From: Marixanthomonas spongiae
Lineage (GTDB): Bacteria; Bacteroidota; Bacteroidia; Flavobacteriales; Flavobacteriaceae
NCBI RefSeq assembly: GCF_003095375.1
Contig: NZ_QEHR01000003.1
Span: forward strand, 1-64,000
Direction: 5' to 3'
DNA: 64,000 nucleotides
The translations under genes and the position numbers were made by a program. Within the stretch, counting starts at the first letter, position 1. Each line of letters starts with the position of its first letter. Positions 27,639 through 32,935 of the stretch are shown here, piece after piece. Below the pieces are notes generated by a model, which saw only the letters and a list, made by a program, of their open reading frames with translations, was not told the DNA's origin and ran no database searches.

Positions 27639-27937
27639 TTATAGTCCCTTCTGAAAAATGAGGTGCAAAAATAAGGCCTTTTAAGTGTTTTCAACGAGTT
27701 TTTAGAGAATAATTTTAAAGTCGTTTTATAAGATTGAAAAAACAACCATCACACCCATTAGCTCCTCTCCTATTGCAGCCAATTTAAACCATGCATGTTA
27801 AATAGTTGTTAAATTACTACTTTGCATTGCATAGTACTGTAACAAAAATGATACTCCGTCGTCTATTTAATACAACCGGTTAAAAACAAAAGGTTTAAAA
27901 CGCCAATTTTTCATCAACCCATTAAAACCCAATTATC
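27639..27937. other. Regulatory spacer upstream of the microprotein locus
   Basis: These 299 bp hold no gene. The main features are the near-perfect palindrome at 27816-27838 and an AT-rich leader before the first microprotein ATG. Confidence 0.6.
27816..27838. promoter_or_regulatory. 23-bp operator-like palindrome upstream of tandem microproteins
   Basis: The core TACTnTGCAnTGCAnAGTA is symmetric, and 18 of the 22 off-centre positions pair across the dyad. It includes a TACTTTG string that is one base short of the TAnnTTTG promoter element, so a bound repressor would block initiation. PadR- and GntR-type regulators recognise dyads of this form, but no such regulator gene is in the window. 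Confidence 0.6.
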
Positions 27938-28033
27938 ATGAGGACATTAGACAGCGATCAAATTACAGAGCGATTACACAACTCAAAGAGCTATGCTTGG
28001 AACCAAAAGAGAAGATACCGGCAAAAAGCCTAA
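27938..28033 (+). CDS. Tandem microprotein 1 (31 aa, MRTLDS family)
   Basis: An ATG at 27938 opens 31 residues, beginning MRTLDSDQITERL and ending in a very basic WNQKRRYRQKA. The next gene encodes a paralogue in which 22 of the first 28 residues are identical and no indel occurs. Nine of the 22 conserved codons differ only synonymously, which is strong evidence of selection on the peptide. The leaders attatcATGAG and the upstream aaaacc are also conserved between copies. There is no signal peptide or membrane helix. The function is unknown; the basic WNQKRRYR tail could bind nucleic acid or a membrane surface. Confidence 0.75.
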   Translation: MRTLDSDQITERLHNSKSYAWNQKRRYRQKA

Positions 28034-28077
28034 AACCTCTAAAATCAAAAAATATTAATCATTTAAAACCAATTATC

Positions 28078-28164
28078 ATGAGAACATTAGACAGCAATCA
28101 AATTACCGAACGGTTACAAAACACACACGGCTACACGTGGAACCAAAAACGAAGGTACCGATAA
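28078..28164 (+). CDS. Tandem microprotein 2 (28 aa, MRTLDS family)
   Basis: This paralogue of the preceding gene is offset by 140 bp. It reads MRTLDSNQITERL, then a variable middle, then YTWNQKRRYR and TAA. The start context aattatcATGAG is the same as in copy 1. The variation is concentrated at residues 14-20, while both ends are fixed, so the N-terminal MRTLDS-QITERL and the C-terminal WNQKRRYR seem to be the functional parts. Confidence 0.75.
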   Translation: MRTLDSNQITERLQNTHGYTWNQKRRYR

Positions 28165-28203
28165 GGCCGAGTCATCATCAATCAATTTTATAAATCAACT
28201 ACC

Positions 28204-28338
28204 ATGAAAACCCAGAGGAATGTAAGGAAAAGGCTAATTAGTGCTGCCAGAAAACAGCACGATTTCTTTCCTTTTAGAGAAAACACCCATACTTATGAAG
28301 ACCCTTATTTTGAAGAAACCAACCGCTACGCCTACTAA
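28204..28338 (+). CDS. Microprotein 3 (44 aa, charged/aromatic)
   Basis: An ATG at 28204 opens 44 residues with a basic N-terminal half (MKTQRNVRKRLISAARKQ) and an acidic, tyrosine- and phenylalanine-rich C-terminal half (YEDPYFEETNRYAY). It starts 39 bp after microprotein 2 and ends just before a shared terminator, so it is likely the third gene of the same transcript. The leader (atcaactaccATG) resembles those of the other two. No homology to the MRTLDS peptides is evident and no function is known. Confidence 0.6.
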   Translation: MKTQRNVRKRLISAARKQHDFFPFRENTHTYEDPYFEETNRYAY

Positions 28339-28361: not shown

Positions 28362-28395
28362 AAAAAGCTGAAATTTTAAACGATTTCAGCTTTTT
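28362..28395. terminator. Bidirectional terminator between microproteins and PKS cluster
   Basis: AAAAAGCTGAAAT (28362-28374) and ATTTCAGCTTTTT (28383-28395) pair perfectly. T-runs on both strands let it end the plus-strand microprotein transcript and the minus-strand PKS operon. Confidence 0.88.
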
Positions 28396-28404
28396 CTTTT
28401 TTCC

Positions 28405-28659
28405 CTATCTTATATTTAATTTCTGCTTTATAATAGCAATTGCGTCATTCAGGGTCCGTAAATTCTCCATATCGGCATTGGCAAACTCCACATCAAATTC
28501 ATCTTCAACATCCAAAACCACATCGACCAAATGGGCCGAGTTGATGTTCAATTCGCCAGTAAGGTCTTTATCTGCAGCAATAGCTTCTTCTGAAACATCT
28601 TCGGGCAGATAGGTTTTTACAATTGGGAGCAGTTTTGCATAAATTTGTTCGGTGGTCAT
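28405..28659 (-). CDS. Acyl carrier protein of the type III PKS cluster
   Basis: This 84-residue acidic helical protein is the size of an ACP. The phosphopantetheine site is S41 in LNINSAHLVDVV, where the usual DSL is replaced by NSA, so this is a dedicated carrier and not the housekeeping AcpP. FDVEFANADMENLRTLNDAI forms helix III. It is the last gene of the minus-strand cluster, 3 bp after the ketosynthase gene, and should carry the acyl chain handled by the KS, dehydratase and enoyl reductase of the cluster. Confidence 0.88.
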   Translation of the reverse strand: MTTEQIYAKLLPIVKTYLPEDVSEEAIAADKDLTGELNINSAHLVDVVLDVEDEFDVEFANADMENLRTLNDAIAIIKQKLNIR

Positions 28660-28662
28660 AGA

Positions 28663-29937
28663 TCAACTTTTTCTTCTAAAGATAATACACGCATTCACAT
28701 CGCCAAAACCAAAACTGGCTTTTATTACGGTTTGAAGATTCGTTTTAAAAGTTTCCTTCGGAATTTTTTCAGAAGAAATCAACCTTTCAATCTCCGGATG
28801 CACGGTTTCACAATTTACATTCGGAAATAAAAAACCATCTTTTAACTGAAGTATGGTTGAAACCGCCTCAATACTGCCGCTTGCAGCTAAACAATGGCCG
28901 GTCATTCCTTTCAGTGAATTGATATAAGGGAAATCTGCCCCATTTCTGTACAGCGCTTCGCACCAATTCCGTATTTCCAACGGGTCTTTAGTAGTGGCGG
29001 TAAGGTGGCCATTGATATAGTCAATTTCCGAGACGTCAATTTCAGCCTGTTTTAAACTTTCGGTGATACATCGTTTCACCGCTATACTGTTAGGTGCGGT
29101 CATACTGCCTTCGCCTCGTTGACCACCACTGTTTACGTGACCGCCCAACACTTCAGCATAAATGGTTGCGCCTCTTTCTTGGGCACTTTTCAACGATTCT
29201 AAAACCAAGGCCCCGGCGCCGCAACCGGGTACAAATCCGCTGGCATTTGCATCCATCGGCCTGGAGGCTGCCGTAGGATCGTTATTGTACTGATAAGGCA
29301 AAATCCGCATCGCATCAAAGCCACCCCAAACATACGGACCGCCGTCGTTGCTGCTTCCGCAAAGCATTTGTGTTGCTTTTCCCGAAGCAATGTGCTCATA
29401 CCCCATAACAATCGCTTCGGTTCCCGTGGCACAGGCTGATGCATTGCTTGTCACCCAGTTTCCGGCACCGCTCATTCCGCCCAGATACGCTGCAACGCTG
29501 CTCGCCATGGTTTGGGCCACGCTCGTGCTTCCCAACCGGCGTACGTTACCCTCATCAATTTTATAGAACGATTCCCTGAATTTTTCAACGGAACTATTCC
29601 CTGAGCCAAAAATAATCCCCAAATCCCACAACGGTTCTCCTTGTTTGCCAGCGAGACTAATGTCAGCATCCTTAAGCGCATCCATTCCGGCAATAACGCC
29701 GTACAAAATATTGTCGCTTTTAAAATTTTTAAGTTGAAGATCGGTAAAATATTCTTTTATTTTTTCTTCTGAAATGTTCGGCATTCCCCCTATTTGGCAA
29801 GAAAAACCCAATTCTTTTAATTTTTGATGAAATGCAATTCCCGATGTGCCCGATTGGATTGCTTCTGAAAAAACCGGTACGCCCACACCGTTAGGAGCAA
29901 CCACGCCAAGCCCTGTAACCACAACCCTATGCTTCAT
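28663..29937 (-). CDS. Beta-ketoacyl-ACP synthase (FabF/KAS II-like)
   Basis: This 424-residue condensing enzyme starts at ATG 29937 (MKHRVVVTGLGVVAPNG); an upstream in-frame extension overlaps the dehydratase gene and is rejected. The active-site cysteine is C169 in SNASACATGTEA. The two histidines are H311 (INGHLTATTKDP, where most FabF enzymes have HGTGT) and H348 (GMTGHCLAASGSIE), with K343 just before. The Cys-His-His triad indicates a decarboxylating condensing enzyme. It overlaps the dehydratase stop by 11 bp. With the other genes it should elongate an acyl starter on the cluster ACP. Confidence 0.9.
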   Translation of the reverse strand: MKHRVVVTGLGVVAPNGVGVPVFSEAIQSGTSGIAFHQKLKELGFSCQIGGMPNISEEKIKEYFTDLQLKNFKSDNILYGVIAGMDALKDADISLAGKQGEPLWDLGIIFGSGNSSVEKFRESFYKIDEGNVRRLGSTSVAQTMASSVAAYLGGMSGAGNWVTSNASACATGTEAIVMGYEHIASGKATQMLCGSSNDGGPYVWGGFDAMRILPYQYNNDPTAASRPMDANASGFVPGCGAGALVLESLKSAQERGATIYAEVLGGHVNSGGQRGEGSMTAPNSIAVKRCITESLKQAEIDVSEIDYINGHLTATTKDPLEIRNWCEALYRNGADFPYINSLKGMTGHCLAASGSIEAVSTILQLKDGFLFPNVNCETVHPEIERLISSEKIPKETFKTNLQTVIKASFGFGDVNACIIFRRKS

Positions 29938-30391
29938 CTCCTGAAATTTTAACCATTCCGCTAATGGTGCCTTTGCAGATGATTTCATTTCGGCTGTTCA
30001 GCATATTAACCGCACATTTCAGTTTATTGAACCGAAAATATTCTTTTTTTGAAACCACGCTAACGGTTTCCCCAGGATAAACGGGTTTTAAAAAATCGAT
30101 ATTCGTATTGCTCAACACTATATGCAAATTTTTGAATGAATTTTCAGAATCCGTTTTAGAAATTAAATAAATACCAAGGCAGACCACACCAATTTGCGCC
30201 ATACATTCGGTTAATATGACTCCCGGTGTTACGGCTATTTCCTTAAAATGCCCTTCGTAAAAATAGGCCGTAGGGTTAAACGTATAAAGACCTTCCGCTT
30301 TTTCTTCGGAAATAAATATCAGTTCATCTACAAACAAAAAAGGTTCTTGATACGGCAGTCTTTTTAAGATATTTTCAAATTTCGTGTCCAT
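29927..30391 (-). CDS. FabZ-like 3-hydroxyacyl-ACP dehydratase (hotdog fold)
   Basis: This 154-residue protein has the FabA/FabZ signature. RLPYQEPFLFVDEL opens the fold, FYEGHFKEIAVTPGVILTECMAQ supplies the catalytic H48 and the acid E62, and DFLKPVYPGETV follows. It should dehydrate 3-hydroxyacyl-ACP to enoyl-ACP. The gene directly abuts the SDR gene upstream and overlaps the KS gene downstream. Confidence 0.88.
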   Translation of the reverse strand: MDTKFENILKRLPYQEPFLFVDELIFISEEKAEGLYTFNPTAYFYEGHFKEIAVTPGVILTECMAQIGVVCLGIYLISKTDSENSFKNLHIVLSNTNIDFLKPVYPGETVSVVSKKEYFRFNKLKCAVNMLNSRNEIICKGTISGMVKISGDEA

Positions 30392-31168
30392 TTACTGCAA
30401 ACTTTCGCCCCCGTCAACCGTTAAAATGGTGCCATTTATCCAGTTCGCTTCGTCTTTGCAAAGCAAATACACCGAGTTTGCCACATCTTCAGGGGTTGTT
30501 AATCTATTAAACGGACTTCTTTTCTTAGCCTGTTCGGTGAGGGTTTCGCTGCCGGGGATCATTTTAAATGAAGGGGTCAGCGTTGTTCCGGCCTGTATGC
30601 AATTGGTGGTAATGTTAAGCGGTGCCAATTCTACGGCCATTTGGCGCATCAAGGCCTCCAAAGTGGCTTTTGCTGCCGAAACTGCTCCGTAGCCCGGCCA
30701 GACTTTTGCGTTTCCTTCGCTGGTAAAGGCAATGTTCCGGGCATTTTCGGTAAAGGTTTCATGGGCAATCAAGGCTTGGGTCCATTCGTACCAACTGGTG
30801 GCCATCCCGTGCAAGGTGATGTCCAAGTCGGTCATGGAAAGCATATTCAACTGGGCGGCCTGCATGGTTTTTAAACTGCCTTTGGCAATGCTGTGCAACA
30901 ATAGTTTACAACTGTTTTTTGGTATGGAAGCAAGAACAGCTTTGATGGTTGTTTCTTTTAAAGCATCTTTATTGAAATCCATTACTTCCACCCCCGCATC
31001 TTTCATTCTTTTTAATTCTTCGTGCAACGCTTGCATGTCGCTTTTCCGCGTACGGTGCACGATACAAACATTCATTCCCGCTTCAGCCAGTTTATGTGCA
31101 GAGGCAAGGCCTAAGCCGCTACTGCCGCCTAAAATTAATGCCCACTGATTTGAAAATTCTTTTGCCAT
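30392..31168 (-). CDS. SDR with enoyl-ACP-reductase-type active site (FabL/FabI-like)
   Basis: This 258-residue Rossmann protein has a nucleotide-binding GGSSGLG motif (14-20). The catalytic pair is Y160 and K167, spaced Y-x6-K (YGAVSAAK), as in enoyl-ACP reductases FabI and FabL and unlike the Y-x3-K of classical SDR ketoreductases. LLHSIAKGS (90-98) matches the HSI segment of the enoyl reductases, and the helix after the lysine (TLEALMRQMAVELAP) is FabL-like. I therefore read it as the enoyl reductase of the cluster. It starts 1 bp after the PKS stop. Confidence 0.8.
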   Translation of the reverse strand: MAKEFSNQWALILGGSSGLGLASAHKLAEAGMNVCIVHRTRKSDMQALHEELKRMKDAGVEVMDFNKDALKETTIKAVLASIPKNSCKLLLHSIAKGSLKTMQAAQLNMLSMTDLDITLHGMATSWYEWTQALIAHETFTENARNIAFTSEGNAKVWPGYGAVSAAKATLEALMRQMAVELAPLNITTNCIQAGTTLTPSFKMIPGSETLTEQAKKRSPFNRLTTPEDVANSVYLLCKDEANWINGTILTVDGGESLQ

Positions 31169-31169
31169 A

Positions 31170-32222
31170 TTAAAATTGTAAAAGGATTCGTTGCGCTGAA
31201 AAACCAGGACCGAAACTCAACATTAATCCCAAATCACCTGGTTTGGTAGTTTTTTTCATAAACCGTTCCAATACAAACAGCACGGTAACGCTGCTCATAT
31301 TACCGTACAATTTAAGGGTTTCTTTGGTATCATCTATGTTTTTACCCAAACTTCCGAAAAGTTCTTCCACAGTTTGCACTATTTTTTTTCCGCCGGGATG
31401 AAAAATCAAATGGTCCACATCTTCAATACGTATATTGTTTTCTTCAAGAAATGGATGGACTATTTTTGGAAAATGATCGGCTATGGTTTGTGGTACTGCT
31501 TTATCCAAAATCATTTGCAGACCGGTGTTTACCAGTTTAAAACCCATTAAATTGGTGGCATCATAAAAATGGTACATGGCTTCATCTAACAACTTTGGCC
31601 CCTTATCCTCTTCATTTGAAGATAACAGCACACAAGCCGCTCCATCCCCAAAAATAGCGGCACTAACAATATTTGCCATTGAATAATCATCTAATTGAAA
31701 GGTTGCTGTTGGAGCTTCCAACGCAATAACGGCAGCCCGTTTTCCGGGATTGGCTTTTAAGAAGTTTTTAGCATAAATCATTCCTGAAACGCCTGCCGCG
31801 CAGCCCATTTCGGTAACGGGAAGGCGCACCACATCTTGCCGCAGTTGCAATTCATTGATCAAATACGCATCGACCGAAGGAATCATAAACCCCGTACAAC
31901 TTACAGTTATAATGTAATCGATGTCTGTTGGTTTCCAATTGGCTTGTTGCAAAGCTTTTTCCAGACACTGCCTGCCCAGCTGTTTTATTTCCTGTACGTA
32001 CAATTCGTTTTTAGACTCAAAATCGGTATGCGTAAACACCTGTTTCGGGTCCATGATAGAATACCGCCGCTCTACGCCAGAGCCTTCAAAAATTTTGATC
32101 ACTTTCCGTTTAAAACGTTGTTCTTGGCCTTCTAACCACAGTTTTACCAACGGCAAGGTCTCTTCCGTGCGCTGGGAAAAAGGCGGCAATTGCGTGGCTA
32201 CTGTTTTTATTATTACGTTCAT
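31170..32222 (-). CDS. Type III polyketide synthase (chalcone/stilbene synthase family)
   Basis: This 350-residue enzyme starts at ATG 32222 and overlaps the methyltransferase stop by ATGA; an upstream in-frame extension into that gene is rejected. The catalytic triad is complete: C141 in VTEMGCAAGVSG, H275 in HLIFHPGGKK and N308 in KLYGNMSSVTV. The C-terminal GFGPGF equivalent is SFGPGFSAQ. The N-terminal sequence is typical of the bacterial type III PKSs that make alkylresorcinols or alkylpyrones from long acyl starters. The starter may be delivered by the cluster ACP. Methyltransferase and flavoprotein genes lie upstream in the same operon, as in phenolic-lipid operons. Confidence 0.93.
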   Translation of the reverse strand: MNVIIKTVATQLPPFSQRTEETLPLVKLWLEGQEQRFKRKVIKIFEGSGVERRYSIMDPKQVFTHTDFESKNELYVQEIKQLGRQCLEKALQQANWKPTDIDYIITVSCTGFMIPSVDAYLINELQLRQDVVRLPVTEMGCAAGVSGMIYAKNFLKANPGKRAAVIALEAPTATFQLDDYSMANIVSAAIFGDGAACVLLSSNEEDKGPKLLDEAMYHFYDATNLMGFKLVNTGLQMILDKAVPQTIADHFPKIVHPFLEENNIRIEDVDHLIFHPGGKKIVQTVEELFGSLGKNIDDTKETLKLYGNMSSVTVLFVLERFMKKTTKPGDLGLMLSFGPGFSAQRILLQF

Positions 32223-32935
32223 CGTTGCTTTTTTAATATCCATTGGTAGCGGAAGGCCCATTTCCAGCGGATGGTGGATTGTTGTTGGTCTATTTTTTCT
32301 GAAATTTGCCACAGCTCTTCTTTTTTAAATCCTCGTGCCACGGAAACCAAACCATCATAACGGGCTATTTTGGTTTTCAGAAACAACCTGCTAAACCCTT
32401 TGAATAAGTGGAAGGCGAGGTTACTGCGTTGTAAATCGTTTACTACAATCCCGACTTTGGAAATATTCATCAAATTCTTAAGAATGGCTGTAATCTCATC
32501 GTTCTTGAAATGGTGCAAAAACAAATTACACAGGGCAATATCGGCTTTTGGAAGGTTTTTTTCTGAAAACACATCGACCGTTTTAAAAGTTATGTTCTGG
32601 TTTTTTTTGGACCGTTTTTTAGCTTCTGAAATAATATGGGCATTGGCATCGATCCCTATTAATTGAAACTCATAATCGTTTTTAAGGCCTAATCGGGCAC
32701 ATTTCCGAAGCATCTCGCCATCACCGCATCCTACGTCCAAAATTGTGATGGGTCGCTCTTTAGGCAGTGAGGCCAAAAGGCTTTTAAGGCCGTTAAGTGT
32801 TGTATTGGCACCTCCCAATATGGTGTTAACGGTTTTTAAATCGGTTAACACGGCTTGCATTTCTTTTCCCTGTAAATTAAAATCGTCCATGATTTCAACT
32901 TCATTGGAGCGGTATGTGGATGAAAATTCTGGCAT
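32219..32935 (-). CDS. Class I SAM-dependent methyltransferase of the PKS cluster
   Basis: This 238-residue soluble methyltransferase has motif I ILDVGCGDGEM (65-75) and the post-motif ADIALCNLFLHHF. It starts with ATG overlapping the flavoprotein stop by one base (TAATG) and ends overlapping the PKS start (ATGA). Its likely substrate is the polyketide product; O- versus C-methylation cannot be told. Confidence 0.88.
   Translation of the reverse strand: MPEFSSTYRSNEVEIMDDFNLQGKEMQAVLTDLKTVNTILGGANTTLNGLKSLLASLPKERPITILDVGCGDGEMLRKCARLGLKNDYEFQLIGIDANAHIISEAKKRSKKNQNITFKTVDVFSEKNLPKADIALCNLFLHHFKNDEITAILKNLMNISKVGIVVNDLQRSNLAFHLFKGFSRLFLKTKIARYDGLVSVARGFKKEELWQISEKIDQQQSTIRWKWAFRYQWILKKQR

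Follow-up and report, generated by a model that had tools for sequence, protein, structure and literature searches.

Tandem basic microproteins behind a conserved ECF-type promoter in the Flavobacteriaceae

A stretch of 64,000 nucleotides of Marixanthomonas spongiae DNA (hereafter, the window) carries a genuine locus of very short genes arranged in tandem behind a conserved upstream element that, by its form, is an ECF-type promoter. Taken as a whole, we interpret this locus as a polycistronic operon for basic microproteins that are not secreted and that serve in stress, a reading to which we assign a probability of about 0.5. An ECF sigma factor would transcribe the operon, and its expression would be modulated by the PadR regulator of a HAAS/PspC/Toastrack envelope-stress operon or by a different factor that recognizes the same site; on these two premises, the peptides would be made under envelope stress.

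The microprotein locus of the window

The locus comprises three frames on the plus strand: microprotein 1 (ORF1, 27938..28033), whose 31 residues correspond to a 28-residue family plus three residues; its 28-residue paralogue, microprotein 2 (ORF2, 28078..28164); and microprotein 3 (ORF3, 28204..28338), a 44-residue protein with a C-terminal NRYAY that is the counterpart of a last cistron of 42-46 residues elsewhere. These are the two paralogous frames and the third, 44-codon frame that an earlier note on this DNA had described from the letters alone, and the sequence agrees with it in detail: ORF1 and ORF2 are offset by 140 bp and have 22 of 28 residues in common with no indels, 13 of these 22 residues being encoded by the same codon and nine by synonymous codons, and the leaders of the two genes are alike (..AAAACC(C)AATTATC before the ATG). 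Comparison of the two frames yields 10 synonymous changes on 16 sites and seven non-synonymous changes on 68. The terminator proposed to close the set is likewise present on the plus strand (28362..28402), as an intrinsic terminator with a hairpin and a U-run that folds at -17 kcal/mol (z -3.2; one of 200 shuffles folds equally well), and a similar hairpin lies 3' of the third frame in five congeneric loci. A helicase gene flanks the operon on one side and a gene for an acyl-carrier-like protein on the other, and the same arrangement is found in the congeneric loci wherever the flanks were read. On the minus strand, positions 28405-32312 of the window hold carrier protein, ketosynthase, dehydratase-like, SDR-like and chalcone-synthase-like genes, named by eye, with the carrier protein alone scanned; by eye, this group looks like a flexirubin-type pigment cluster.

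A 28-residue family under purifying selection

The family follows the 28-residue pattern MRTLxxNQ(I/L)T...TKSYxWNxKRRYR. Conserved homologues occur in six of the seven genomes of the genus (that of the window included) and in other genera; the seventh genome, without a match, is 55% complete. A search of 60 genomes, again including that of the window and with E allowed up to 10, matched 25 of them; the weakest matches are due to chance, and the clear ones extend to several genera beyond its own and are frequently tandem. In a profile-based search of the order (395 genomes), the family was identified in at least 12 genomes at E up to 0.01, all of the same taxonomic family and two of them weak, which is a lower bound because the first pass scored at most 21 candidates per genome. 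When one genome per species was scanned, 284 stretches matched and 264 were confirmed, the best 80 of these 264 being retained, and the titles of the matches named Flavobacteriaceae genera or less closely classified bacteria.

We read 288 copies (up to 36 residues, E < 0.001), of which 248 differ in their surroundings, distributed over 112 arrays that each contain one to six copies. Of 299 raw places, 261 give a length of 28 residues; longer readings of these genes in the same frame are included in this count. M1, W21, N22, R25 and R26 do not vary among 236 distinct coding sequences, in agreement with the earlier proposal that the peptides form a selected family whose ends are fixed and whose middle varies. 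The invariant R25 and R26 are nevertheless encoded by five and six codons, respectively, and heterozygosity in these sequences is 0.43 at the third codon position, compared to 0.29 and 0.26 at the other two. The dN/dS ratio is clearly below 1, with a pN/pS of 0.077 within the genus (12 sequences) and of 0.39 over all sequences. Judged by these comparisons of coding sequences, the 28-mers are a protein-coding family under purifying selection, borne in tandem copies.

The last cistron recurs as well: a frame of 42-46 residues starts within 160 nt after the last 28-mer in 73 of 110 arrays, compared to 113 of 2200 Markov shuffles, and a frame of 21-24 residues takes its place in six of the 110 arrays, compared to one of the 2200 shuffles. 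In three loci (L035, L036 and L039), runs of ATCA/TCAA repeats, longest in L039, lie between the cistrons and are possibly length-variable leaders.

An ECF-type promoter upstream of the arrays

In the window, a direct TGTTAAA repeat, its two copies 11 bp apart (27796-27802 and 27807-27813, plus strand), forms part of the upstream element and is followed by the dyad TACTTTGCATTGCATAGTA (27818..27836) and by the promoter (27838..27865, plus strand; -35 TGTAACA, 15 nt, -10 CGTCTA), which begins one base past the dyad. The dyad had been described as overlapping a promoter-like string; its position stands, but the conserved promoter itself is of the ECF type and lies just downstream of it. Within 300 bp upstream, GTAAC-N16-CGTC is found in 96 of the 112 arrays, and the spacing is 16 in all 96, spacings of 15 to 18 having been permitted. 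The right half of the dyad adjoins the -35 box in 98 of the 112 arrays, and the repeat GTTAA-n4-6-TGTTAA is present within 300 bp in 84. Among the 16 arrays without the exact promoter, eight keep both the -35 box and the dyad's right half and differ by a single base in CGTC; eight of the 112 lack both promoter and half-site (some of these lie just before an ABC transporter or a hydrolase-like gene), and six have the promoter without the right half of the dyad.

To gauge the spread of the element, we searched for an extended promoter, CATAGTACTGTAAC-N16-CGTC, with two mismatches permitted. It matched 188 of 397 genomes of the family and 128 of its 237 genera, compared to 27 matches in 26 genomes (hand count) for a reversed-pattern control. 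Among 395 genomes of the class, 23 were matched: six from the own family, which has 14 genomes in this set, and 17 from outside it. Every exact match of this class-wide search fell in the own family; the matches outside it each had one or two mismatches, and the control produced more matches than these.

The dyad and PadR-PspC operons

The 23-bp dyad claimed by the earlier note is present, positions 27816-27838 matching their reverse complement at 18 of 23 positions. Allowing up to two mismatches, TACTTTGCATTGCATAGTA has its sole match in the 3.4-Mb genome at this place and the control has none; with the inner positions relaxed, there are six matches in the genome and seven in the control, that of the window alone being free of mismatches. 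A looser form of the dyad matched in 22 of 60 genomes and precedes PadR genes in five. The expectation that the dyad would be found beside a PadR-type regulator was borne out in part: what appears to be the same dyad precedes PadR-PspC operons of relatives, but the array of the window is not beside padR. The PadR-PspC operon of this genome, located on another contig, encodes a DUF4870 protein, PadR and a protein with PspC, LiaI-LiaF-TM and Toastrack domains (HAAS was below the cut-off), and its operator shows three mismatches to the dyad pattern.

We then compared the regions upstream of PspC-linked PadR genes, one per genome, in 38 genomes most of which had been selected as carriers. Of these 38 regions, 19 came within two mismatches of the dyad, compared to one of 380 shuffles and none of 132 other stretches; a further 18 showed three mismatches, a level also reached by 28 of the 380 shuffles and 15 of the 132 stretches. 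A composite of repeat and dyad, defined by a regular expression written post hoc with the sites in view, occurs in 36 of the 38 PadR upstream regions and in none of the 512 controls (380 shuffles and 132 stretches), and in full in 53 of the 112 microprotein arrays and 49 of 109 promoter rows. TGTTAA-type repeats also lie before PadR operons of relatives, at a distance from the dyad that, by eye, differs from that in the microprotein promoters. A fixed-spacing weight matrix built from the microprotein promoters placed 10 of the 38 PadR upstream regions above both controls and 14 above the 99th percentile; it was dropped as weak, and the mismatch counts and composite regular expression were used instead. 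Comparison of sites in this manner supports the dyad as a candidate PadR-type operator.

Alternatively, the dyad could be a second housekeeping-type promoter or the site of some other factor, with the ECF promoter alone being of consequence, an explanation compatible with any of those weighed below. Its left half, TACTTTGC, agrees with the TAnnTTGY box (SM5) of Flavobacterium psychrophilum as given in the available part of PMC9723704. This half is degraded in about half of the microprotein promoters, notably in Aquimarina and in many of the sites preceding the 37-mers described below, the right half and the -35 box being better conserved. The occurrence of the same dyad before PadR-PspC operons in distant genera speaks against such an assignment, and we regard it as a minority view that nonetheless carries appreciable weight.

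A sister dyad, TACTTTGnAnTnCAAAGTA (AAAGTA form), recurs in L058, L060-L067, L074 and L075, sometimes twice about 1 kb apart, and in most of these loci it lies near a gene that, by eye, encodes a small winged-helix-like regulator; its presence around other regulator genes tells against the PadR reading of the dyad.

Other peptide types behind the promoter

Among the extended-promoter matches listed, we read 110 loci, of which 30 were given by the search tool and 80 were chosen, mostly with zero or one mismatch; some are from genomes already known from the peptide search. Two loci had no site by the pattern used, and the 109 rows represent 108 distinct sites, L292 and L296 being a single one. 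A small protein with a W-x3-R-(R/N)-(Y/F)-like tail, according to a pattern written post hoc from sight of the sites, was found at 97 of the 108 sites, all distinct, compared to one of 545 shuffles and one of 924 random places. By a simple pattern, 62 of the 109 rows carry a 28-mer-like tail. Many sites carry another family, mostly of proteins of 36-39 residues (37-mers, MKASxxKTATESKTGQYFS...; 67 distinct by a loose pattern). Since 97 of the 108 sites keep the tail even though many are otherwise different, the promoter and the basic tail appear to be conserved while the rest of the protein diverges.

Profile comparison of the 28-mers and 37-mers gave an E of 4.7e-5 and a probability of 68%, with an alignment covering the tail only, and their common descent is likely, not proved. 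The corresponding values were 6e-4 and 28% for the 37-mers and 44-mers, and 0.002 and 13% for the 28-mers and 44-mers. Of the 12 rows without the tail, five are variants or are cut by contig ends (L310, L325, L339, L360 and L365). L302 has at least four near-identical tandem 29-mers (MRTSSETKNRKQFMNSEATSLGYFKRRIA) under the same promoter that do not carry the conserved tryptophan, and L338 has nothing resembling the microproteins. In five rows (four sites), the promoter precedes larger frames of 141-188 residues that are acidic and secreted-looking. The same extended promoter lies in L292, L296, L334 and L337 before acidic, secreted-looking repeat proteins (..LDWSTIELIEIEEEVELGFDTSKYLPKNFN..) rather than microproteins; the two of these acidic repeat proteins that were scanned had no Pfam match over the cut-off.

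These comparisons could point to a system spanning the Flavobacteriaceae, in which the promoter and the W-x3-R-(R/N)-(Y/F) tail have been kept while the microproteins diverged into 28-mers, 37-mers and 44-mers, forming a class of envelope-stress effectors that acts through RNA or the ribosome. We put this forward tentatively and consider it rather doubtful; if true, the class would be new, and overlooked because its genes are so short.

Peptide properties and proposed function

Calculated over 201 28-mers, the mean charge is +6 and the highest 15-residue mean Kyte-Doolittle hydropathy is 0.56, with no hydrophobic membrane or signal stretch in any of them, and the helical amphipathicity (hydrophobic moment) is not above that of shuffles; the last two properties speak somewhat against membrane insertion. 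A structure model computed from 40 aligned sequences has two helices (mean pLDDT 75.5, pTM 0.33). The earlier remark that the family belongs to no described system was upheld by the searches, which gave no clear match in Pfam, NCBIfam, PHROGs, PADLOC or PDB: no match exceeded the cut-off in Pfam, NCBIfam or PDB (the best Pfam entry, HAB, reached an E of 0.0075, in three of 29 members), none of 40 members matched PHROGs, and one of 40 matched PADLOC at a chance-level E of 0.024. The phage and plasmid collections contained no match to the 28-mers and no match to viral contigs was confirmed, and a mobile or viral origin was rejected on these grounds. Literature searches in an open-access library, a coverage that largely excludes subscription papers, brought up no description of the family, and the letters of the promoter and of the tail peptide retrieved a single open-access text, which is unrelated.

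The peptides are basic, have no membrane stretch and show no clear match to described, phage, plasmid or defence families, which leads us to favor a cytoplasmic role through an acidic partner. They would remain in the cytoplasm, where the fixed W-x3-R-(R/N)-(Y/F) tail, probably helical, might bind RNA, the ribosome or a regulatory protein, the partner itself being a guess; the tandem copies would provide variants or a higher dose, with the weakly conserved middle serving as a spacer.

The neighborhood of the arrays bears on the competing explanations. Of 92 arrays with enough flanking sequence, 15 have a relative of the helicase as the first or second gene upstream and 23 have an ExbD-like gene nearby (families named by eye), and 13 mostly Aquimarina loci have, by eye, a different common neighbor. 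Neighbors common across genera suggest that the arrays have been inherited vertically. Single 28-mer genes without the promoter immediately precede a pair of ABC transporter genes in two genera (L042 and L050) and a hydrolase-like gene in L040, these neighbors being named by eye.

The peptides might instead regulate their own circuit, binding the ECF sigma factor, its anti-sigma factor, PadR or RNA polymerase in a feedback loop. Their being small, basic and soluble suits such a role, and a promoter conserved more widely than any single peptide type fits a closed loop. Yet no relative of the PadR of this genome is present among 357 near neighbors of the 92 arrays, nothing among the 12 commonest neighbor clusters resembles, by eye, an ECF or anti-sigma factor, and the PadR-PspC operon of the genome lies on a different contig from the array; we hold a loop of this kind to be improbable. 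Slightly less probable still is that they are exported cationic peptides, antimicrobial or signaling, acting on membranes or on neighboring cells, as their charge, their tryptophan, their tandem diverging paralogues, the ABC transporter genes that follow L042 and L050 and the ExbD-like gene in 23 of 92 arrays might suggest; the lack of a signal-like hydrophobic stretch and of amphipathicity above shuffles argues against export, and inspection of the 12 commonest clusters by eye showed no evident gene for maturation or export other than the ExbD-like gene and the two ABC cases.

Type I toxins have a hydrophobic membrane-spanning helix. The presence in one operon of small tandem genes of two kinds, a 28-mer and a 44-mer, would agree with a toxin, or a toxin and its antidote, of a toxin-antitoxin type, but the peptides have no such transmembrane stretch, the family has no phage, plasmid or viral-contig match and a sole, chance-level PADLOC match, and the shared neighbors suggest vertical inheritance, making this very improbable. 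Hardly any credence attaches to the transcript acting as a small regulatory RNA or leader with incidental peptides, for although another conserved intergenic stretch of the genus (see below) bears the same promoter and a hairpin-like end, the codon pattern and pN/pS indicate selection on the protein and the length of 28 residues is kept in most of the raw places.

Comparison with known systems

In E. coli and other bacteria, small proteins and RNAs of the envelope-stress response belong to ECF/sigma-E-type regulons. The operon of basic microproteins proposed here resembles them in its small products and ECF-type promoter, but differs in that no family match was found for it, in its tandem paralogues and in having been found here only in Flavobacteriaceae or unclassified relatives. 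Arginine-rich RNA-binding peptides such as lambda N consist of a short basic helix with a tryptophan, which the microproteins may resemble, RNA binding being putative here.

A closer parallel for the promoter is the ECF promoter class of F. psychrophilum, SM6 (sigma-ECF), which has a CGT box at -10 as in the arrays; in the available part of PMC9723704, the tabulated SM6 genes include T9SS, Band-7, ABC transporter ATPase, sRNA, an ECF operon and others, with no microproteins among them. The large genus g51, which we take without proof to be Flavobacterium, lacks the promoter in its five genomes of the class-wide search and, among the genomes listed from the profile search of the order, the peptide in 13. 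The HAAS-PadR-PspC-Toastrack modules are described as envelope-stress systems in the accessible portion of PMC11237479. The element of repeat and dyad seen in the arrays is also found at the PadR operons of relatives; that portion of PMC11237479, however, mentions no microproteins, and the two operons are unlinked in the genome of the window.

Small stress-induced proteins are already known; what appears new is this family, together with an arrangement defined by its promoter. Among the Flavobacteriaceae genomes sampled, nearly half have the promoter, and the libraries searched hold no family for its peptides. The promoter locates microprotein genes that are missed by a sequence search with one peptide family, and the system offers a testable entry into ECF and PadR-PspC stress signaling in a large marine group.

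An intergenic stretch that is conserved within the genus, represented by L079 (G000:C2:222119-222146), L181, L182 and L183, presents TGTAACA-N15-CGTCTA and a hairpin-like end with no obvious frame. An Rfam scan of four loci (the microprotein locus, L079, L182 and L183) gave nothing above the gathering score. The stretch has a FabH-like gene as its neighbor in three of the loci L079 and L181-L183 and is a candidate for an ECF-driven small RNA.
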